Source: Rheinheimera sp. A13L (GTDB lineage Bacteria; Pseudomonadota; Gammaproteobacteria; Enterobacterales; Alteromonadaceae). From it: a stretch of 64,000 nucleotides of DNA. The DNA is taken from positions 62,001 to 126,000 of the forward strand of contig NZ_AFHI01000056.1 of NCBI RefSeq assembly GCF_000217935.1, read 5' to 3'. A model generated the notes under the pieces. That model ran no database searches. It had not been told where the DNA came from and worked only from the letters and a program-made list of their open reading frames with translations. The translations under genes were made by a program, and so were the position numbers. Each line of letters opens with the position of its first letter. Positions within the stretch are counted from its first letter, which is position 1. Of the stretch, positions 2,407-12,195 are shown piece by piece.

Positions 2407-2553
2407 AAAAAAATCGTCTACATGGAAGGCTGGGCATCCATCATAAAGAGCTAAACACAAAGTCACCAGCTTGTTTTTGCTGTCAGTACAGTATTAATCA
2501 GCCATTCAGCTGAGGTGCATACACTTAAATCATCAGCTAACAGGAGTTTTTAT

Positions 2554-3261
2554 ATGGTCCAGTCCCGTTCATGGGTTTCAGCAACAATTTTGGCTTTGGC
2601 TCTGGTCGCAGGCAGCGCTATTTTAGCCAACAGCCTGATCGAGTTCAGAGCTATGGAGCGTGTTGTTCAGGTCAAAGGTTTAGCTGAACGGGAGGTTGCC
2701 GCAGATACTGTGATTTGGCCTATCAAATTTAACGATGTCGACAATAACCTGACCACTTTAGTGGCTAATGTTGAGCGTAAAAACGAGCAAATTCAGGCAT
2801 TTTTGAAACTGCAGGGCTTTAGTCAAAAAGAGATTTCTGTGGCAATGCCACAAATAGTCGACCGTCAGGCCGGTTATTACGACCCCAATGCAAATCAGAT
2901 GCGCTACACAGCCAGCTCCATTGTCACTGTTTACAGCAGCAATGTCGATTTAGTGCATCAGGCTATGGCGAAGCTACTGGAGCTGAGCAAAACAGGGATC
3001 GCCATAGCCGGGCAGGATTATGACAGCAAAGCCGAATTTATTTTCAGCGGTTTAAACGAATTAAAACCCGCCATGATTGAAGAAGCCACCCGTAATGCCC
3101 GTGAAGTGGCTACTAAATTTGCCGCAGATTCACAAAGTAAACTCGGCAAAATTAAAACCGCCAGCCAGGGTCAGTTCAGTATCAGTGACCGTGACAGCAA
3201 TACGCCTTATATCAAAAAAGTCAGAGTGGTAGCGACGGTAGACTACTACCTTTCAGATTAG
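2554..3261 (+). CDS. SIMPL (DUF541) domain membrane-anchored periplasmic protein
   Basis: About 235 residues with an N-terminal hydrophobic segment (residues ~8-28) followed by a SIMPL/DUF541 domain recognisable by RVVQVKGLAEREV and VRVVATVDYYL near the ends. SIMPL proteins are periplasmic or membrane-associated; family members have been linked to stress and signalling, but no biochemical role can be assigned here. The start ATG 2554 is set by an AGGAG ribosome-binding site at 2542-2546; an in-frame GTG at 2515 would place 13 odd residues before it. The small lipoprotein gene follows after 22 bp, suggesting a two-gene transcript. Confidence 0.85.
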   Translation: MVQSRSWVSATILALALVAGSAILANSLIEFRAMERVVQVKGLAEREVAADTVIWPIKFNDVDNNLTTLVANVERKNEQIQAFLKLQGFSQKEISVAMPQIVDRQAGYYDPNANQMRYTASSIVTVYSSNVDLVHQAMAKLLELSKTGIAIAGQDYDSKAEFIFSGLNELKPAMIEEATRNAREVATKFAADSQSKLGKIKTASQGQFSISDRDSNTPYIKKVRVVATVDYYLSD

Positions 3262-3283
3262 TAAAGACTTACAGACGGAGCTT

Positions 3284-3517
3284 ATGATGAAAAAAGCATT
3301 GTTTCTGACCAGCAGTATTACAGTTTTACTGACATTAACAGGCTGTGTGGTGCGTGGCCCCAGTGTCTGGGTTGAACCACCTGGCTATTATGGCACTGCA
3401 GTGATAGTTGAACCAAGGCCCACTGTAGTAGTGGTTGAAGAGCGGCATTATCATCAGGACAGGCACTATCATAAAAAGCATAAAAAACAAAAACGCCATT
3501 ATCATCGCCACCATTAA
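3284..3517 (+). CDS. Small histidine-rich lipoprotein
   Basis: A 77-residue protein with a lipoprotein signal ending in the lipobox LTGC (lipidated Cys21), so it should be exported and anchored in a membrane. The mature part has a Pro/Val-rich stretch (PSVWVEPPGYYG, VIVEPRPTVVVVEE), and the last 24 residues contain nine histidines mixed with Lys, Arg and Tyr. Such a tail could bind divalent metals or polyanions; that is inference from composition. I recognise no named family. It lies 22 bp downstream of the SIMPL gene and upstream of a good hairpin terminator. Confidence 0.72.
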   Translation: MMKKALFLTSSITVLLTLTGCVVRGPSVWVEPPGYYGTAVIVEPRPTVVVVEERHYHQDRHYHKKHKKQKRHYHRHH

Positions 3518-3639
3518 GCATAACTTGTGTCCGGCACTGTTGCAGATACAGTTAAACCGGACTAAGCTTTGCTTGTTAGTTTAGATTAAAGGTAAATTCC
3601 GTTTTTGATTTTTTGTGTTTATTTGGCAGGATGTGTGAA

Positions 3640-3681
3640 AAGGCCGGAGCTGAGCTGTTAAGCAAAGCTCCGGCCTTTTTT
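3640..3681 (+). terminator. Rho-independent terminator after the SIMPL/lipoprotein genes
   Basis: A perfect 12-bp stem (AAGGCCGGAGCT, 3640-3651, with AGCTCCGGCCTT, 3666-3677) is followed by a T-run. It lies about 120 bp beyond the lipoprotein stop. An A-run before the stem means it may also terminate the convergent phosphoesterase operon. Confidence 0.8.
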
Positions 3682-3741
3682 ATCAAATATACAAATTAGC
3701 GACTCTAAATCTGAGCCTGACGCTAAACAGTATTGCTGCGC

Positions 3742-4701
3742 CTAAGAAGAACGCTTAATACTGAAACTATAGCTATGCTGTGGCAGTGGTGTGGCAACAC
3801 CTGTCTGATAAGTGTCGACCTGCATTATGCCTTTGTCATTCAGGCTAAAGACTCTGAACATAGGAGTATGTTTGGTCTCATCAGGAATTTTGGTGCGCTC
3901 CAGGGCTGGAATATGTAAATAATGCACCTGACCCAGTTGCTTGGAGTGATCTGTTCTGTCCATATCCATATGTAAATCACCTGAAATCACAGCAACCAGA
4001 TTGGACTGAGCTATCACTTCTGCAAAACCCGGGTGTTTGATGCCCTTTTCCGCATTTTCAGGATAAACGCCAGTTTGGGCACCGTGCACAATCAATAGCA
4101 CGGGTTTGTTGTTTAAGCGTTTCATCTCGCTCAGGATCCAGCTGATCCCCTGGTCGTTAAAATCACGGCCGTGATCTGGTGATGCAAAAACCAAAGCTAC
4201 TGCATCATACTCCAGCACATAACTTGGTGAATCGAGCGTCACTTTGCCCTGATTCCACAGATTGGCATACTGCATAAAACGTTCTACCGTACTGCCATGT
4301 TCTTCATTACCCATAATAGGGTAAAACGGCAATTTCAGTTGTTGCAGTACAGGTGTCGCATTTTCATATTGGATTTGGGTGCCCTTGTGCGCTATATCAC
4401 CCACCCCGACCACAAAGCTTAGCTTCAGAGGTTCTGTCAGTTGGTTCACATCGGCGACAGCAGCGGCCACATTAGGAAATTGAGGTTCAGGTTTAGGTTC
4501 GGCGTCACCCAACACGGCAAAAGCCAGCACCACTGAACCAGTTTCTGCTGGTGTTGGTGTTGCTTCTGCTGGCGCTGTTGCTGCTGCAGCCTGGGTCTGA
4601 GGCTTTTGCTGTTGCGTCTCTGTCGGTGAATCAGCCGGAGAACAAGCAGTCAGCAAAACGCTGAGTACCAGAGGTACAAAAAGGCTGAAATGAGTTTTCA
4701 T
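3742..4701 (-). CDS. Metallophosphoesterase-like lipoprotein
   Basis: A 319-residue exported protein with lipobox LTAC (Cys20) followed by a Gln/Ala/Pro/Thr-rich linker (about 21-58). The remainder resembles the calcineurin-like metallophosphoesterase fold: VLGDAEP, GVGDIAHKG, IMGNEEHG, LLIVHGAQTG and VISGDLHMD occur in the expected order. Several motifs are non-canonical: GNEEH in place of GNH(D/E), GDAEP where DxH is expected, and GDLHMD in place of GHxH. Metal binding may therefore be altered. It is the third gene of a probable operon after the GGDEF and AraC genes, starting 26 bp after the AraC stop. The substrate is unknown; a phosphate-scavenging role fits the context. Confidence 0.75.
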   Translation of the reverse strand: MKTHFSLFVPLVLSVLLTACSPADSPTETQQQKPQTQAAAATAPAEATPTPAETGSVVLAFAVLGDAEPKPEPQFPNVAAAVADVNQLTEPLKLSFVVGVGDIAHKGTQIQYENATPVLQQLKLPFYPIMGNEEHGSTVERFMQYANLWNQGKVTLDSPSYVLEYDAVALVFASPDHGRDFNDQGISWILSEMKRLNNKPVLLIVHGAQTGVYPENAEKGIKHPGFAEVIAQSNLVAVISGDLHMDMDRTDHSKQLGQVHYLHIPALERTKIPDETKHTPMFRVFSLNDKGIMQVDTYQTGVATPLPQHSYSFSIKRSS

Positions 4702-4727
4702 AAATAGTCCCGTTATAAGTATGGTGG

Positions 4728-5744
4728 TTAATTAAAATGGAACATGCCTTTAAAGCTGCTGGGAATTAACCCTGTCCAGCGTTTAAAGGCACGGCGAAAG
4801 TTGTGTTCATCTGAGTAGCCCAGCTTCAGCGCCAGTTGGCGGTTTGAATACTGGCCTTGTTGCAGCAGATTGCGGGCAGCATCACGGCGTACTTCATCGA
4901 TCAAACGGGCAAAATTAGTGTCATGCCGGCTGAGTAAACGTTTGAGTGCACTATTGCTCAGCCCCAAGGCTAAAGCCACCTGTTCCTGACTCAACAACTG
5001 TGGCAAAGCACGCTGTTGCAACCGGGAAATACTTTCCAGCACACCCCGTTGTTTTATCAACACATGATTCAGTTGACGGCAGGTTCGTCTGGCCGCTTTA
5101 AATTGCTCCGCGTCGGCATCATGAAATGCATGCTGCCACAGAGGCAACGGAATACGTAAAGTGTCGCAGGGCTGATTAACACTCAGCTCACAGCCCCACA
5201 ACTGATGCTCGGCGCTATCATGCTGCAACTGCACACTGACGCCAGCCAAAGAGCCCAATTGCTGTTTAATCAGGCTCAGCAACAAGGAACAGGCAATGGT
5301 CAGCATAAATGGCTGCTGCGACGCTAAACCCAGCGCTGCTTTAAACTCAATCACTATATGGTCATTTTGCTGGTAAAGCCGGGCATACAAACCCGGAAAC
5401 AACTGATGACGGAAATAATACAAATGGCACAGTGCCTGCCTCAGGTTCTTTGCATACTGCAAACTTTGGCAGACGGCAATATAGCGGCTGTTCAACATGG
5501 CGTTGCCCAGTAAAAAAGGTAGCTCAGGGCTTTTTAGCTGATGCTGACAATTGTGCAACAACTTCAGCCAGTCGGCATGGTGCAGCCGTCCATGGGGCCT
5601 TTGTAAATCCTGCTCAAAAATACTGGTGCCACTTAATAACTTATGCAGTTCGACTCCACGACGCTGAGCTAAAGCCAGCAGCTCTGTACTGCCATGTTGC
5701 AGCAACAGAATTTTGTCATGAGAATCAAAGTGGCGTGCTGACAT
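4728..5744 (-). CDS. AraC-family transcriptional regulator (OruR/ArgR-like)
   Basis: A 338-residue regulator. The N-terminal about 200 residues resemble the arabinose-binding-like ligand domain of the OruR subgroup (LLGNAMLNSRYIAVCQSLQYAKNL region). The C-terminal about 90 residues form the double helix-turn-helix: LSQEQVALALGLSNSALKRLL, then RQLALKLGYSDEHNFRRAFKRWTG, the AraC signature. Its ATG overlaps the stop codon of the upstream GGDEF gene (TGATG at 5742-5746), so translation is probably coupled. The ligand and targets are unknown; the adjacent phosphoesterase gene and the divergent phytase operon are candidate targets. Confidence 0.88.
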   Translation of the reverse strand: MSARHFDSHDKILLLQHGSTELLALAQRRGVELHKLLSGTSIFEQDLQRPHGRLHHADWLKLLHNCQHQLKSPELPFLLGNAMLNSRYIAVCQSLQYAKNLRQALCHLYYFRHQLFPGLYARLYQQNDHIVIEFKAALGLASQQPFMLTIACSLLLSLIKQQLGSLAGVSVQLQHDSAEHQLWGCELSVNQPCDTLRIPLPLWQHAFHDADAEQFKAARRTCRQLNHVLIKQRGVLESISRLQQRALPQLLSQEQVALALGLSNSALKRLLSRHDTNFARLIDEVRRDAARNLLQQGQYSNRQLALKLGYSDEHNFRRAFKRWTGLIPSSFKGMFHFN

Positions 5745-6643
5745 CAGACAGGCTGCAATCTGAATTCAGTGCCCTGTTTAGAGGCGGCTAACATCTGAAG
5801 CGCGGTCTGAAGAGCAGCAGAGGCGGAGTCCTGACTCACTTGCATTACAGCCATGATTAGATCAGGCTTATTTTCTTCATCCGTTAACTGCACCACCTGT
5901 TGTTGCAGATGCTGCGCCATAATCTGAGCCGCAGCTGCCGCTGTATCAGGTAAGACTGCAACAAAACAATCTCCGCTGTAGCGACAGACCACATCACTGT
6001 GGCGTAACTGACTTAACAGTAACTCACTCAACTGACCCAAATAATGATCTCCAGCCGCTATACCATTACGTCGGTTAAAATCGGCGAAGTTATGAATATC
6101 CAAAACTAACAGGCTCAATGGCTGACGCTGGCTTTGATGTAATTCAACTTCCCTTTGCAACACAGCCAGTAAATACTCAGCGCCATACAGCTGAGTTAAA
6201 GGGTCAATTAATTCATGGTTTCGTAAAAACAACTCCCGGCCACGCAATTGCCTGTTGATAGCCCGCTGTTCCCTGTGCCAGCCAATCAAACCATAAGTTA
6301 AAATCAGCATGCCCACTGGCGCAGGTAATGACTCCAGCCAACTCATCAGACGCACATCTTCAGGGTACTGGATAAACTCATCCAATAAATCGAGAAAATA
6401 GGAATAGACTAACAGCAAGCTGCCATAGTACAGCAACTCAGTCACCCTCCCTGCCGGACGACTGCTGACTATTAATCCCAACCAGCCACAAGCAACCAGT
6501 AAAGTTGTGCCTTCTCCCAGCACATCCACCCAATCAAACTCATAGCTTTGTTTTGCATAACCACAATAAAACGCGAGCAATAAACTGCTGAGTAAAAGCA
6601 GCAGGCTAAATACCAATTTATATCGATGTTGACGCCACATCAT
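5744..6643 (-). CDS. Membrane protein with degenerate GGDEF domain
   Basis: About 299 residues: several N-terminal membrane helices (roughly residues 5-140), then a GGDEF-type domain starting at ELIDPLTQLYG. The active-site signature is SGDCF instead of GG(D/E)EF, so the catalytic glutamate position is a cysteine and cyclase activity is doubtful. The inhibitory-site motif RxxD is kept as RHSD, five residues upstream. This combination suggests c-di-GMP binding rather than synthesis, which is inference. The start ATG 6641-6643 is preferred (GGAT seven bases upstream); ATG 6668-6670 would add nine residues and lies upstream of the promoter position predicted from the Pho box. It is translationally coupled to the AraC gene. 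Confidence 0.82.
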   Translation of the reverse strand: MMWRQHRYKLVFSLLLLLSSLLLAFYCGYAKQSYEFDWVDVLGEGTTLLVACGWLGLIVSSRPAGRVTELLYYGSLLLVYSYFLDLLDEFIQYPEDVRLMSWLESLPAPVGMLILTYGLIGWHREQRAINRQLRGRELFLRNHELIDPLTQLYGAEYLLAVLQREVELHQSQRQPLSLLVLDIHNFADFNRRNGIAAGDHYLGQLSELLLSQLRHSDVVCRYSGDCFVAVLPDTAAAAAQIMAQHLQQQVVQLTDEENKPDLIMAVMQVSQDSASAALQTALQMLAASKQGTEFRLQPV

Positions 6644-6684
6644 TCTCAGATCCAGGCAAATAAAAACCATTTTGCGGTTGGCGC

Positions 6685-6702
6685 ATGACAGTTACATGAC
6701 AA
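6685..6702 (-). promoter_or_regulatory. Candidate PhoB binding site (Pho box)
   Basis: On the minus strand these 18 bases read TTGTCATGTAACTGTCAT, matching the E. coli Pho-box consensus (CTGTCATAWAWCTGTCAY) at 16 of 18 positions, with two direct TGTCAT repeats 11 bp apart. A possible -10 (CAAAAT) begins 11 bases beyond it toward the GGDEF gene. It lies between the GGDEF operon and the TonB-receptor/phytase operon, so PhoB could act on either or both; the orientation favours the GGDEF side. Confidence 0.6.
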
Positions 6703-6841
6703 AGTGAAGCACTGACGGTATCAGGCTGAGCGGTAAAGACCCGGGTCAGCAGCGCTCAGCCAAGCTTATTCAGAAACGGTGTTTTGTCACAGAGCCCCGG
6801 CAGACTGGCTAACAGGTTTAATAAGTCCACTGAGAGCTAAA

Positions 6842-9595
6842 ATGACACTGAACTACCGTCCTAACCTGCTTGCGTTTGCCGTTACATTGGCCTGCAGCAC
6901 AGTATCCACCTCATTATTGGCCGATGCCGATGTACAAGGCCGGATCACAGATAACCGTAATAGTCTGCTGGCAGGAGCACAGGTCAGTATTCCTGAACTT
7001 AAATTGCGCCGTACTACAGGTGCCGATGGCAGCTTTCATTTCAGACAATTACCTGCAGGAACTTATACCCTGCACGTCAACTACTTAGGTGCTGCTCCAC
7101 AAAGCCAGATACTGGTGGTTGCGGATACGCAGCAACGACTGGCGGATATCAAACTGCTATCGGCCAGCAATTCTATTGAACATATAGAAGTGGTGGGACA
7201 GTCAGGTGCCATCAGCAAAGCATTAAACCGCCAGCGTAACGCCAACGGTATATTAACTGTGGCCAGTACAGATGAAATGGGGCAATTTCCAGACAGTAAT
7301 GTCAGCGAAGCATTGCAACGCCTGGCAGGTTTGTCTGTAGAACGGGATCAGGGCGAAGGCCGCTTTGTCCGGGTGCGGGGTTTGGCTCCAGACTACAATG
7401 CGGTGACTTATAACGGTACTCAACTGGCAGCTCCTGAAGCAGGCCGCCGTGCCGTGGCTTTGGATGTGATTCCTTCTGATTTACTTGAATCGGTGGAAGT
7501 GAATAAAACCCTGACCCCGGATATGCCGGCAGGCTCTTTGGGGGGCACAGTAGAAATCAAAAGTTTATCTGCCTTTGATCGCAGCGATGACTTTTATTCC
7601 GCCACTGTGGAAGCTGGCCATAACGAACTACAAAGCAAAACCAGCCCTAAAGTTTCAGGTGTGATCAGCAAAATCATGGATTTAGGTGGCGAAACTGATG
7701 TTTTTGGTGTGGCTTTGGCGGCCAGTTTCGCTGAACGTAAGTTTGGTTCTGAAAACGTTGAAAGTGGCGGCGCCTGGGATTTTGAAGAAGGTCTGGAAGA
7801 ATTTGAATTAAGGGATTACAGCATCAGTCGTGAACGCCTGGGTGTGGCACTGAATCTGGACTACAGACCAGGTAACAACAATGACTATTACCTCCGTACT
7901 CTGTACAGCCGCTTTAGCGATACAGAAGAACGCCAGGGTATGGTCGTTGAACTGGCCGATCCGCTTTTTGCCGGCGATACAGGTGAAGCAGCGCTGATCC
8001 GTTCATTAAAACAGCGGGAAGAAACCCAAAGTATCAGTGCTTTTGTTTTAGGTACCAAACAGACATCAGGGGACTGGCAATGGCAACTGGAAGCCGGTGC
8101 CAGCAAAGCAGATGAAGATACGCCTTTTAATATTGGCGCCGCCGACTTTGAGCAGGAATTTGATGACGGTGTAGGCTATAGCGGCAGTACTATTTTGCGC
8201 CTGACCGCACCAGCGGAAGCTTATCTGGCTGACGGCTATGAGTTAAAAGAAGTCGAAATGGGCGACACCTATGCCAAGGAAACTGAACGTAATATCAAAT
8301 TTGACCTGAGCCGCGAATTTACCCAAAGCCAGGGCACTATGCTTCTCAAAAGTGGCGCTAAATTCAGCCAACGCGAAAAAACAGCGGACGAAGACATCTG
8401 GTTGTTTGAAGATTTTGAGGATCTGGGTATCAATGCTTTGAGTATGGCCGATTATGCCGGTGGGCAGGTGGATTATGGCTTGGGCACTCTAGGACAGGCC
8501 GTCAACAGCAACGACATCTATCAGTTAGTGAACAGCCTGAACCGCGATGATTTTGTAGATGACGTCGAATCACAAATTAATGACTATCAGGTGGATGAAG
8601 ATATCAGCGCTGCCTATTTGATGGCGCAGTGGGAACGCGATAACTGGCAGTTAATCACTGGTGTGCGTTATGAACATGAAAAACGTGATGCCCTTGGCAG
8701 TCGTTATGACGCCATCAACGAAACCTTCAGTGCCAATCAGGTGAAAAACTCTGAAGGCTATTGGTTACCCGCAGTAGTGGCACGTTATGATCTGTCGGAG
8801 CAAAGCATAGTGCGAGCTGCTTTCAGCACAGGTTTAGTAAGGCCAAACTTTGAGCAACTGTCACCCGCTTTCTTACTGGAAGAAGATGACGATGAAGTGG
8901 AAGCCGCTTTTGGTAACCCTGAATTAGAAGCTCTGACTTCCAACAATTTTGACCTCGGCATTGAACACTACGCAGATAAACTGGGTGTGTTGTCGGCCAT
9001 GCTGTTTTACAAACAAATTGACAACTTCATCTATGAAGCCGACCTTGCTGGCCGTGGAGAATACGCCGATTTTGCTGTGGCAGAAACCTATGTCAACGGC
9101 GGCAAAGCAGATTTATATGGTATTGAACTGAATGCAGTGCATAAAGTTTCAGGTTTTGGAAACTGGCTGGATAACCTGCTGTTATCAACAAATCTGACGC
9201 TGACGGATTCAGCCGCCGATATTGAATGGTTTGATGATGGTACTTTATTCAGCCGTGAAGTGGCCTTACCCAGCCAATCCGATAAAACCGCTAACCTCAG
9301 CCTGGGTTATGAAACAAATGTAATCAGTCTGCGTCTGGCAGCCAATTATAAATCTGATTATCTGGCTGAAGTGGGTGACATCACGGACAAAGAGTACGAC
9401 GTGCACGCCGATGACCATATGCAGGTTGATTTCACCAGTAAATGGACAGTGCAACCTGGCATGCAGTTTTACTTTAATGTCGTCAACCTCAATGACGAAC
9501 CTTATTACGCTTACACTGGGCGCAAGCCTTATAACTTCCAGTATGAACAATATGGCCGCACCTTTGTGCTGGGCCTGCAAATCACTAACTGGTAA
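6842..9595 (+). CDS. TonB-dependent receptor, probably for phytate or its products
   Basis: An outer-membrane receptor of about 917 residues. It has a signal peptide (MTLNYRPNLLAFAVTLACS...), a carboxypeptidase-regulatory-like domain (about 30-100: VQGRITDNRNSLLAGAQV ... GADGSFHFRQLPAGTYTL), a plug (NVSEALQRLAGLSVERDQGEG ... RVRGLAPDYNAVTYNG ... LGGTVEIKS) and a long beta-barrel ending in an aromatic residue (ITNW). The start ATG 6842 precedes the signal peptide; an upstream in-frame ATG at 6779 would put 21 unlikely residues before it. The phytase gene follows 14 bp downstream, so the two almost certainly share a transcript. Pairing of such receptors with beta-propeller phytases is known in aquatic proteobacteria; the exact ligand is inferred. 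Confidence 0.9.
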   Translation: MTLNYRPNLLAFAVTLACSTVSTSLLADADVQGRITDNRNSLLAGAQVSIPELKLRRTTGADGSFHFRQLPAGTYTLHVNYLGAAPQSQILVVADTQQRLADIKLLSASNSIEHIEVVGQSGAISKALNRQRNANGILTVASTDEMGQFPDSNVSEALQRLAGLSVERDQGEGRFVRVRGLAPDYNAVTYNGTQLAAPEAGRRAVALDVIPSDLLESVEVNKTLTPDMPAGSLGGTVEIKSLSAFDRSDDFYSATVEAGHNELQSKTSPKVSGVISKIMDLGGETDVFGVALAASFAERKFGSENVESGGAWDFEEGLEEFELRDYSISRERLGVALNLDYRPGNNNDYYLRTLYSRFSDTEERQGMVVELADPLFAGDTGEAALIRSLKQREETQSISAFVLGTKQTSGDWQWQLEAGASKADEDTPFNIGAADFEQEFDDGVGYSGSTILRLTAPAEAYLADGYELKEVEMGDTYAKETERNIKFDLSREFTQSQGTMLLKSGAKFSQREKTADEDIWLFEDFEDLGINALSMADYAGGQVDYGLGTLGQAVNSNDIYQLVNSLNRDDFVDDVESQINDYQVDEDISAAYLMAQWERDNWQLITGVRYEHEKRDALGSRYDAINETFSANQVKNSEGYWLPAVVARYDLSEQSIVRAAFSTGLVRPNFEQLSPAFLLEEDDDEVEAAFGNPELEALTSNNFDLGIEHYADKLGVLSAMLFYKQIDNFIYEADLAGRGEYADFAVAETYVNGGKADLYGIELNAVHKVSGFGNWLDNLLLSTNLTLTDSAADIEWFDDGTLFSREVALPSQSDKTANLSLGYETNVISLRLAANYKSDYLAEVGDITDKEYDVHADDHMQVDFTSKWTVQPGMQFYFNVVNLNDEPYYAYTGRKPYNFQYEQYGRTFVLGLQITNW

Positions 9596-9609
9596 GTAAG
9601 GACAACATC

Positions 9610-11568
9610 ATGATATCGACAACAGATTTTTTTAAAGTGAGCATCATAGCGCTGACGCTGAGCACAGTGTTGACTGCCTGTCAGGCCGATCAAGCACAGC
9701 AGCAAGCAGCAACTTCTGCTTCTGCGCCTAAAGCTTTGAACATAAAAGCCAGTCATTACCATCAGGTGCAGGTTGCAGGGCAAGAGTACCAGGTTTTCAC
9801 CGATGGTCAGGGCTTACAGATCAAGCTGGGCGAAACCCAACAAAGCAGCTACAGCGGCAGTTTTAACCGCCTGACTCTACAGCCACTTTCAGCCGACAGC
9901 CTGCTGCTGGCCGCTATGGACAGCAACGACAACAGCTTGTACTTGTGGCGTTTTTCGCCAAAAGAACAAAAGCCTTTAGTACTGATAAGACAGCAACTGA
10001 TCAGCAGCAGAGTTGTGGAAGATTTGTGTTTTTATCAGAGCCACGAAAATCAGCAATTGAGCTTATTTTTACTGGGTGGCCGCGGTGGCGCAGACCAATT
10101 ATTGCTGCAACAAAAGCAAGAGTGGCTGGCAGAGCCAGTGGTGATCCGTGAACTGAATGTACCTTATGACAGCAAAGCCTGCGTTGTGGATCAACAAACT
10201 GCAGCACTGTATATAGCGGAAGCAGACAGAGCTATCTGGTCTTATCAGGCAGAGCCTGAAGCAGATGAAGGCCGCAGCTTAGTTCAGGTTAATCAGCCAT
10301 TTGGTCAGCTGCAAGGCGAAATTTTAGGCTTGCAGCTGCTGCCAGACAGCAGCCTGCTTGCATTAGAGGCAGAACCAGCCAGACTGCTGCATCTCAGCAG
10401 TACAGGTCAGGTGATCCATCACAGCTCAATACCAGCTTTCGCTGAAGCAACTGGTTTATCAGTTCGTGTACAAGGCAACAGCACAACAGCTTATATCAGC
10501 AATGAAGATGCAGATGCTGTGCAAAGCCTGAAACTGCAAGAAACAACAGCAGTTGCAACAACAAAACCAGCTATGGCGCAGGTGCAACCCATCTTGCAAA
10601 CAGAAGCCGCCAGCCAGCGTGGTGATGTAATGGACGACCCTGCGGTATGGCATCATCCTACCCAACCAGAGCTGAGCCTGATCCTCGGCACTGACAAAAG
10701 AGCTGGCCTGGATGTTTACAGTATGCAGGGCAAACGGGTGCAACAACTGGCCGTCGGACGCTTAAATAACGTCGATGTGCGTTACAATTTAAACTGGCAA
10801 GGCAAACAACACGATATCGCCGTAGCCAGTTTACGTAACGACAACAGCCTGCAACTTTTTGCAATTGATCAAAAAGGGCTGTTGCATAATGCAGGTAAAG
10901 TGCCAACCTCCATGAAAGAAATTTATGGTCTGTGCATGTATAAGGATGCAAAAAGAGGCTCACATTACGTTTTTGTCAACGATAAGTCCGGCTTGATTGA
11001 ACAATACCGTATCAACAGCGATGGTACACACTGGCAAGGTACTTTAGTGCGATCTCTGCAGGTGCCAAGTCAGCCTGAAGGCTGTGTTGCCGATGATAAG
11101 CGCGGCATTTTATTTGTTGGCGAAGAAGATGAAGCTGTATGGCGTTTTGCAGCAGGCGCAGAAGCCAGCAGCACAGGTGAAAAAATCATTTCAGTGGATG
11201 GCAAACGTCTGGTCGATGATATAGAAGGTATAGCACTGGCTGAACACAACGGAGCCAGTTATCTGGTGGTTTCCAGTCAGGGCAATGATAGCTATATCAT
11301 TTACGATGCAGCCCCACCTTACACAGAACGTCTGAGATTCAGAGTGACAACGAATCCTCAATTGGGCATAGATGGAGCTTCTGAAACCGATGGTCTTGAA
11401 GTGACAACCCGATCTTTGGGTCCAGGCTTTGAACAAGGTGCTTTGATAGTGCAGGATGGCCGCAATCGTATGCCGGAGCAAGGTCAGAATATGAAACTGG
11501 TGCCCTGGAGTAGCCTGCTGCAAGAGTTGCAGAAGCAAGATCAAAGTAAGCAGAACCAAGGTAAATAA
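9610..11568 (+). CDS. Beta-propeller phytase (3-phytase), two-domain lipoprotein
   Basis: A 652-residue exported protein with lipobox LTAC (Cys24). The C-terminal half (about 315-645) is a calcium-dependent beta-propeller phytase domain: DDPAVWHHPTQPELSLILGTDK, LNNVDVRYNL, ASLRNDNSLQLFAID, YGLCMY, VPSQPEGCVAD, FVGEEDEAVWRF, DIEGIAL and ASETDGLEVT are family landmarks carrying the acidic metal ligands. The N-terminal half (about 40-305) looks like a second, degenerate propeller with related blade patterns. Dual-domain phytases are known in which the incomplete N-terminal domain aids hydrolysis of phytate. The lipid anchor suggests attachment to a cell membrane, probably the outer one. It is co-oriented with the receptor, 14 bp apart, and followed by a terminator. 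Confidence 0.9.
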   Translation: MISTTDFFKVSIIALTLSTVLTACQADQAQQQAATSASAPKALNIKASHYHQVQVAGQEYQVFTDGQGLQIKLGETQQSSYSGSFNRLTLQPLSADSLLLAAMDSNDNSLYLWRFSPKEQKPLVLIRQQLISSRVVEDLCFYQSHENQQLSLFLLGGRGGADQLLLQQKQEWLAEPVVIRELNVPYDSKACVVDQQTAALYIAEADRAIWSYQAEPEADEGRSLVQVNQPFGQLQGEILGLQLLPDSSLLALEAEPARLLHLSSTGQVIHHSSIPAFAEATGLSVRVQGNSTTAYISNEDADAVQSLKLQETTAVATTKPAMAQVQPILQTEAASQRGDVMDDPAVWHHPTQPELSLILGTDKRAGLDVYSMQGKRVQQLAVGRLNNVDVRYNLNWQGKQHDIAVASLRNDNSLQLFAIDQKGLLHNAGKVPTSMKEIYGLCMYKDAKRGSHYVFVNDKSGLIEQYRINSDGTHWQGTLVRSLQVPSQPEGCVADDKRGILFVGEEDEAVWRFAAGAEASSTGEKIISVDGKRLVDDIEGIALAEHNGASYLVVSSQGNDSYIIYDAAPPYTERLRFRVTTNPQLGIDGASETDGLEVTTRSLGPGFEQGALIVQDGRNRMPEQGQNMKLVPWSSLLQELQKQDQSKQNQGK

Positions 11569-11617
11569 TACCGAAACGAAATATTCCCTTTAAGGGTTAA
11601 CATAAAATGCACTTAAG

Positions 11618-11655
11618 GCGGCTGGTTTAGCTCAAAAACCAGTCGCTTTTTTATT
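11618..11655 (+). terminator. Rho-independent terminator of the receptor-phytase operon
   Basis: An 11-bp stem with one G-T pair (GCGGCTGGTTT, 11618-11628, with AAACCAGTCGC, 11636-11646) is followed by six T residues, about 50 bp after the phytase stop. Confidence 0.85.
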
Positions 11656-11802
11656 TTCTACAGCACCACTTTAAAGCCTCTTCACTATGTCCATGAGTCT
11701 GCTGAACTTGTTTTATCAGGAAAATATCGTTTACTTATTGCGCTTTTCGCAGAATCACGACATGCTTAAGTCAGGTAAATGCTCCAAGCAAGGATGTTGC
11801 GC

Positions 11803-12195
11803 ATGACTATAGATCAATCTTCTATCCTGATCGTCGATGACGTCAGTTCAGTTCGTTATTTCTTAAATCAAAATTTGCGTATTATGGGCGCTGAAAAAGT
11901 GTCAGAAGCCAGTACAGGCCAACAAGCTTTGATGGCTATCAGCACAGATCATCATGATGTGATTTTTTTGGATATTGAATTACCGGACAGTAACGGTCAT
12001 GAGCTGTTAGGCCGCATTAAAGCATTGGACCCCAAGTGCCATGTGGTCATTATGTCAGCACACAGCACTGTGGAAAATGTAAAACGCAGTGTTGAAGGAG
12101 GAGCCAGTGGTTTTATGGCAAAACCTTTTACCCCACAAAAAATTCAGGCAACGATGAATCGTATCTGCAACTTGCCCCAGGCCCAATCCGCTTAA
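11803..12195 (+). CDS. Single-domain response regulator (CheY-like receiver)
   Basis: About 130 residues forming one receiver domain: acidic pocket VDD (residues 11-13), phospho-acceptor Asp57 in FLDIEL, Ser in VIMSAHS and the conserved Lys in AKPF. There is no output domain, so it must signal by protein contact, as CheY does. The start ATG 11803 has an AAGGA site eight bases upstream; upstream in-frame ATGs at 11779 and 11794 are less well placed. No cognate kinase is adjacent. Its stop codon abuts the triplicated repeat derived from the neighbouring hopJ gene. Confidence 0.88.
   Translation: MTIDQSSILIVDDVSSVRYFLNQNLRIMGAEKVSEASTGQQALMAISTDHHDVIFLDIELPDSNGHELLGRIKALDPKCHVVIMSAHSTVENVKRSVEGGASGFMAKPFTPQKIQATMNRICNLPQAQSA

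Follow-up and report, generated by a model that had tools for sequence, protein, structure and literature searches.

Among the closest described systems are the PhoB-dependent promoters of phoB and pstS, and the locus reported here shares with them 11-nt direct repeats set 10 nt from the −10 hexamer. Unlike phoB and pstS, however, the box here would drive a local pair of regulators, and in many relatives of this locus the −10 doubles as the spacer of an AraC-type half-site. The araBAD/AraC system has two-part half-sites about one helical turn apart, and two distant sites by divergent promoters could loop; at the present locus, half-sites of a different sequence are combined with PhoB boxes, and a loop is only putative. 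Previous work indicated that the PhoB regulon of Caulobacter includes a phytase and TonB receptors, as this locus would, whereas no local AraC or GGDEF regulator is mentioned in the sections of that paper drawn on here (PMC11208175). In Pseudomonas aeruginosa, VreI likewise regulates transcription locally and is linked to the response to phosphate starvation; according to the part of the report consulted, it forms an ECF sigma/anti-sigma pair, whereas an AraC-family protein and an apparently dead GGDEF protein are found here (PMC7035377). We found no report of a GGDEF-AraC pair beside a phytase, of its operator or of its coupling to PhoB in the literature searched, in which subscription journals were thinly covered, and the consulted parts of two further papers (PMC9414882, PMC3409153) held nothing specific to the module. 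What appears to be new is that the Pho regulon would contain a local AraC circuit in which the regulator is paired with an unusual pseudo-cyclase. To our knowledge, little is understood of the decision by which bacteria turn to phytate, a major store of organic phosphorus in plants.

The window (the whole 64-kb stretch of DNA that was analysed) carries a receptor-phytase operon and, divergent from it, a GGDEF-AraC operon; their genes and the sites between them are collected in Table 1. The named near relatives of the GGDEF gene are from Rheinheimera (86–91% identity). An ortholog is present in 17 of 22 genomes of the genus (E ≤1.8e-84), the other five giving best matches of 5.2e-17 or weaker, and the receptor gene is divergent from it at all 17 loci, though incomplete in L041 (contig end) and L045. 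In genome G012, the contig that carries phytase and receptor breaks off within the receptor gene. The C-terminus of the AraC-family protein is a double helix-turn-helix (PF12833, E 2.3e-16), and its profile matches AraC-family structures; a structure model reached a pLDDT of 76.6, and no claim is based on it. The preliminary description had the operon end in a phosphoesterase gene, which holds here, but in relatives this gene accompanies the pair at only 13 of 36 loci. Matches of its product are weak (Metallophos, 1.9e-05; PDB, 0.0086), and its metal-site motifs (GDAEP, GDIAH, GNEEH, and GDLH) are unusual and kept in nearly all 13 orthologs; the set of metal ligands may be altered. When seven loci of the genus (L042–L048) are compared with window positions 2515–12195, the flanking SIMPL and response-regulator genes are about 90–95% identical where present, and the phytate cassette between those flanks is inverted and only about 35–61% identical, as if it had been swapped at one chromosomal slot. 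In Stutzerimonas kunmingensis 7850S (L228, 2711–4278), two transposase-like ORFs, recognized by eye, lie between the receptor and GGDEF genes.

Table 1. Genes and candidate regulatory sites of the locus (window positions).
Feature	Position	Strand	Remark
Lipoprotein-like metallophosphoesterase, third operon gene	3742..4701	-	In 13/36 loci with the pair
AraC-family regulator (Arabinose_bd + HTH_18), overlaps GGDEF gene end	4728..5744	-	
Membrane protein, degenerate GGDEF domain (SGDCF), RxxD retained	5744..6643	-	
-10-like hexamer CAAAAT, 10 nt after Pho box	6669..6674	-	Genus phoB/pstS promoters spaced alike
Pho box TTGTCATGTAACTGTCAT, facing GGDEF-AraC operon	6685..6702	-	Highest PhoB-matrix score in the window; kept in orthologous loci
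AraC-type half-site GGGTCTTTACCGCTCA, left palindrome arm	6727..6742	-	Exact; in relatives of both arrangements
Palindrome core GACCCGGGTC	6738..6747	.	Sole copy in 4.5 Mb genome
AraC-type half-site GGGTCAGCAGCGCTCA, right arm facing TonB receptor	6743..6758	+	Conserved
Single PhoB-type repeat TTGTCAC in TonB-receptor promoter	6784..6790	+	Half box only here
-10-like hexamer CAGACT, 10 nt after TTGTCAC	6801..6806	+	Geometry as on GGDEF side; hexamer weak
TonB-dependent receptor	6841..9595	+	True start likely ATG 6841, not GTG 6779
Beta-propeller-type phytase (PF02333)	9610..11568	+	E 1.7e-85

The preliminary description had placed a Pho box between the two operons at 6685–6702, and the site is real: the plus strand reads ATGACAGTTACATGACAA, the minus strand TTGTCATGTAACTGTCAT, and all 14 informative positions of YTGTCAY-N4-YTGTCAY are matched by two 7-nt repeats of the CTGTCAT type, 11 nt apart. 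This 18-mer is present in a single copy in the 4.5-Mb genome, and at up to three mismatches it has one other genomic place, compared with six for a reversed control pattern. A bare match to the Pho consensus is weak evidence, since TGTCAYNNNNNTGTCAY, with six exact genomic places, is not commoner than its reversed control (69 versus 99 places at up to one mismatch). For this reason, a PhoB matrix was built from promoters outside the window; it comprises 24 distinct boxes and was trained only on promoters from the phoB and pstS regions of the genus (21 of 22 phoB loci, 18 opposite-strand boxes upstream of phoB, and 22 of 22 pstS loci). PhoB itself (TIGR02154) was detected in all 22 genus genomes. 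In the resulting scan, a check that the preliminary description had proposed, the box has the highest score of about 128,000 window positions, 19.1 bits (the next site has 15.8), and none of 30 simulated 64-kb sequences contained a hit equal to it; the score is lower than that of every training box (21.9–26.7 bits). Of separate note, phoB itself (G000 contig C6) has a further Pho box some 320 bp upstream, on the opposite strand, and 18 of the 22 genomes have an opposite-strand box in this region.

Conservation was assessed in 27 orthologous intergenic regions, namely the window, 16 other loci of the genus, and all 10 listed loci of the sister genus. A box with 12–14 of 14 matches is present on the GGDEF-facing strand in all 27 loci of these two nearest genera (14/14 in 22, 13/14 in two, and 12/14 in three), and the 17 loci examined within the genus all have a box with 12 or more matches directed at the GGDEF gene. 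The earlier proposal that the GGDEF/AraC operon belongs to the Pho regulon beside the phytate genes gains support from this conservation, from which we infer membership; the preliminary description had named a lack of conservation at orthologous loci as grounds against its proposal, and no such lack was seen in these two genera. Among nine distant loci, a box facing the GGDEF gene is absent from L121, L124, L127, and L128 and weak in L123; by this measure, PhoB control of the GGDEF side is not universal among more distant relatives. A NANANT-type hexamer stands 10 nt past the box in 25 of the 27 loci (in L038 and L039, the best-scoring box differs from the one beside the −10), and the −10 hexamers of the genus phoB (CATACT) and pstS (TATGAT) promoters lie at the same distance. 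The plausible −10 reported earlier thus stands as to its spacing, which is that of phoB and pstS, but it overlaps the ATG at 6670. Given this overlap, the true start of the GGDEF gene is probably M10 or M11 (6643 or 6640), and in distant GGDEF orthologs the alignment begins only at residue 9–14.

A PhoB-type repeat on the receptor-phytase side had escaped the preliminary description. No full Pho box is present on this side in this genome (the 18-mer scores −13.0), and in many relatives receptor-side boxes are strong, reaching up to 27.5 of 27.6 bits. With PhoB-type repeats in both promoters, each at the right distance from a −10, and with such strong receptor-side boxes in relatives, one might suppose that PhoB alone drives both operons, that the AraC and GGDEF proteins serve other targets, and that the palindrome between the operons belongs to another factor. 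We regard this as unlikely in view of how the AraC-type half-site is distributed, as described below.

Also missed previously was a candidate operator of AraC type, the palindrome TGAGC-N6-GACCC.GGGTC-N6-GCTCA at 6727–6758, between the Pho box and the receptor gene. Its core, with or without one extra base, is found in all 27 loci of the two genera. The distance from the Pho box to the core is 35 nt in 16 loci, 24 nt in nine, and 36 nt in two, the step from 35 to 24 nt being equal to one 11-nt PhoB repeat; from the core to the receptor YTGTCAY it is 36 nt in 24 loci and 35 nt in three, gap-free in otherwise diverged DNA. The inferred receptor start site lies about 71 bp downstream of the palindrome centre, and the right half-site ends 25 nt ahead of the receptor promoter repeat. 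Each half-site, GGGTC-N6-GCTCA, has its two boxes spaced by about one helical turn, as would suit a double-helix-turn-helix AraC protein, and is a putative operator element that we take to resemble known AraC/XylS sites. Two other readings of these letters were rejected: a dispersed repeat, because the core occurs once in the genome, and a genome-wide AraC regulon, because the half-site has four exact genomic places, two of which are the palindrome, and 121 places at up to one mismatch versus 83 for the control, which gives no clear wider regulon. The other two exact half-sites (G000 C59:7351–7366 and C60:156732–156747) are possible other targets.

The arms of the palindrome are inverted, and they vary between loci yet stay partly complementary, as they would if they formed an RNA hairpin (an attenuator, riboswitch, or terminator) in a leader rather than a protein site. 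However, 34 of 49 loci outside the palindrome genera have half-sites in direct repeat at least 85 bp apart, which cannot form such a hairpin; the direct-repeat arrangement rules out a hairpin shared among the relatives. Moreover, there is no Rfam match up to E 5, and the spacing to the promoter is fixed. The RNA element was rejected on these grounds, and we consider it very improbable.

The AraC-type half-site extends well beyond the two genera. Nine distant loci, whose AraC proteins are about 30% identical, gave no palindrome core, and their 4,870 bp of intergenic DNA contain 10 strict half-sites compared with none in the surrounding 132,138 bp, a difference to be read in the knowledge that an intergenic position by itself favours regulatory motifs and that the half-site was first spotted in near loci and then tried on distant and unlinked ones. 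Relatives from Stutzerimonas, Pseudomonas fluvialis, and Alteromonas have two half-sites (≤1 mismatch) in direct orientation. Forty further regions comprised 20 phytase loci without a listed AraC protein and 20 AraC-listed loci (18 beside a phytase and two without one). The half-site (≤1 mismatch) is present in all 38 of these that have a receptor and a divergent pair (L277 is from the same species as L234), although the loci are related and such counts, like those of the Pho box, overstate independence. L298 has a half-site upstream of GGDEF, and the 3-kb contig of L265 carries no receptor. The 20 phytase loci had been picked as negatives, and yet all 19 with a receptor carry the GGDEF-AraC pair; the AraC count, at least 55 of 295 genomes after a first look that scored at most seven candidates per genome, is therefore an undercount.

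The last batch held 34 loci (32 phytase loci and two AraC-listed loci without phytase). The pair is linked in 27 of them, 25 of which have the half-site (≤1 mismatch); it was not found in L324 and L334 (genus g29), though the pair is linked there. These two loci have another long palindrome (arms GAGCTGTTCGGA/TCCGAACAGCTC) beside a strong Pho box, CTGTCATGTAAATGTCAT. Seven loci lack a linked pair, and two of these, L305 and L306, have the half-site. In genomes G174 and G155, the receptor-phytase genes and the GGDEF-AraC pair are on different contigs; the receptor promoters have two half-sites each (L305, one with a single mismatch; L306, both exact), and the unlinked pairs keep a half-site of their own (L121 and L128). 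L308 and L311, also without a linked pair, gave no receptor or GGDEF hit and lay outside the region of the half-site scan. The half-site was not found in L317, L319, and L330, which have receptor and phytase and no linked pair, and only these three serve as test negatives. AraC searches gave no ortholog in G237 (L330; best E 5.7e-12), a match confined to the C-terminus in G040 (L317; 8.9e-30), and a hit on another contig in G249 (L319; 7.8e-42), so that the clean negatives come down to G237 and perhaps G040. Collectively, the half-site, as a sequence pattern, tracks the AraC pair, the two unlinked cases included. That it does so down to about 30% identity, with another class of receptor and phytase, and at two unlinked loci argues against PhoB acting alone, as does its absence from the three receptor-phytase loci without a linked pair, one of which (G249) has its AraC hit elsewhere.

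We then examined the relative placement of the PhoB and AraC-type sites in 49 loci from beyond the two genera with the palindrome (L277 and L302 were dropped), averaging the PhoB matrix, which was trained elsewhere, upstream of the GGDEF-proximal half-site at offsets of 0–39 nt. At an offset of 5 nt, the mean score was +2.0, with 27 of 49 loci at 8 bits or more and 22 below; at the other 39 offsets, the means were −13.5 to −25.6, and 0–1 of 49 loci reached 8 bits. The 22 loci below 8 bits at 5 nt are a second indication that PhoB control of the GGDEF side is not universal. When the Pho box lies 5 nt from the half-site, the −10, 10 nt after that Pho box, is formed by the six-base half-site spacer (e.g., TAATAT in L122), so that AraC bound there should block the PhoB-driven GGDEF promoter, which implies autorepression. 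Two half-sites are in range at 34 loci; in 32 of these, the top-scoring receptor-side PhoB site within 120 nt has at least 8 bits, and it starts 63–65 nt after the second half-site in 25, 52–54 nt after it in five, and 73 nt after it in two. These sites, their spacings, and their conservation are read directly from the DNA. The two half-sites are 97–100 bp apart in 22 of the 34 loci; the remaining spacings hint at a period of about 10.8 bp, a modest periodicity, as the period was fitted, the spacings were collapsed by hand, and 83 of 5000 random sets equal it. An araBAD-like loop between the distant half-sites is possible. In the genus and its sister genus, the half-sites are joined into one palindrome that lies upstream of either promoter; to judge from the sequence, they no longer cover the −10.

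The half-site over the −10 of the pair's promoter in the direct-repeat relatives is a repressor position, and AraC might accordingly be a repressor of the receptor-phytase operon that is relieved by the signal, leaving PhoB as the sole activator. On the receptor side, however, the half-site is upstream; in the loci measured, 24–25, 64–65, or 74–75 nt separate its end from the proximal repeat, as is commoner for activators, and we think it rather improbable that the sign is reversed in this way.

The GGDEF domain had been called degenerate, which is borne out by the motif SGDCF in this genome and by degenerate signatures ([SA]GD[CKR]F, ASDRF, or HSDHF) in all 36 aligned orthologs; the intact GG[D/E]EF motif of an active diguanylate cyclase is not present. 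In a wider set of 86 loci, none of the 81 motifs that could be read is intact, and the R of RxxD is kept in 80; the loss of GG[D/E]EF is thus a plain feature of these alignments. The RxxD I-site is retained in all 36 aligned orthologs. It is also found in 13 of the 13 other GGDEF loci compared, all with an intact motif, so that RxxD is inherited and not specific, and only its retention after catalytic loss is suggestive. By eye, the N-terminal membrane part is conserved as well, with LDE, SRPxGxVT, and ES.PAP.G motifs. These features suggest that the GGDEF protein is a receptor or adaptor for the AraC protein and not a cyclase. A described case of such a partnership involves MlrA, which belongs to another regulator family than AraC. 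In the E. coli PdeR/DgcM/MlrA system, a GGDEF protein acts on the transcription factor by contact, but DgcM, as presented in the part of that report consulted, is a diguanylate cyclase, unlike the degenerate protein here, for which contact with AraC is only putative (PMC5635695).

To see what the module controls, we considered the at least 55 genomes with AraC: a PF02333 phytase lies within 15 kb in 43, elsewhere in the assembly in three, and none is found in nine. L117–L119 keep the pair and the palindrome beside a different receptor, with no PF02333 phytase. The operons of L117 and L119 encode a purple-acid-phosphatase-type enzyme and a His_Phos_2 enzyme, which in L117 matches multiple inositol-polyphosphate phosphatase (E 1.9e-66). 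Histidine phosphatases thus occur in the regulatory setting of PF02333 (L117 1508–2881, MINPP-like; L119 14015–15394), where by sequence they are non-homologous replacements of the phytase. In L122 and L125, a phosphatase-like lipoprotein, recognized by eye, follows the receptor. The common theme, as judged from these gene contents, is that phosphate esters, phytate above all, are taken up and hydrolysed.

Taken together, these results point to a two-input control region, and we consider it likely that PhoB drives the GGDEF-AraC pair and that AraC relays a second signal to the receptor-phytase operon. We infer binding by the two proteins, the sign of regulation, and the place of the signal and the GGDEF protein as follows. 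At low phosphate, phosphorylated PhoB would bind 6685–6702 and start the GGDEF-AraC(-phosphoesterase) operon. On a second signal, AraC would bind the GGGTC-N6-GCTCA half-sites and, at the palindrome (6727–6758), activate receptor-phytase transcription, helped by the repeat at 6784–6790. In many relatives, one half-site would cover the −10 of the PhoB-driven GGDEF promoter and allow autorepression; the second, most often 97–100 bp away and upstream of the receptor's own Pho box, would allow a loop. The most likely role of the GGDEF protein is that of a membrane receptor or adaptor, catalytically dead, that gates AraC. A bolder version, which we offer only tentatively, is that the GGDEF sensor directly holds or releases AraC in response to either c-di-GMP or an inositol-phosphate cue in the periplasm, so that phytate scavenging would be an AND-gate with the PhoB starvation signal, and that pseudo-cyclase and AraC form a one-component-like family across the Rheinheimera/Alteromonas family and Pseudomonas/Stutzerimonas. 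If true, the AND-gate would rest on PhoB and AraC sites whose interlocking is precise to the base pair.

The conserved module would bring a general phosphate signal and a local regulator together at one promoter and, with its paired pseudo-cyclase, represents a concrete, testable circuit. The putative operator offers a way to find phytate operons, and the module may give an entire group of degenerate GGDEF proteins a function.
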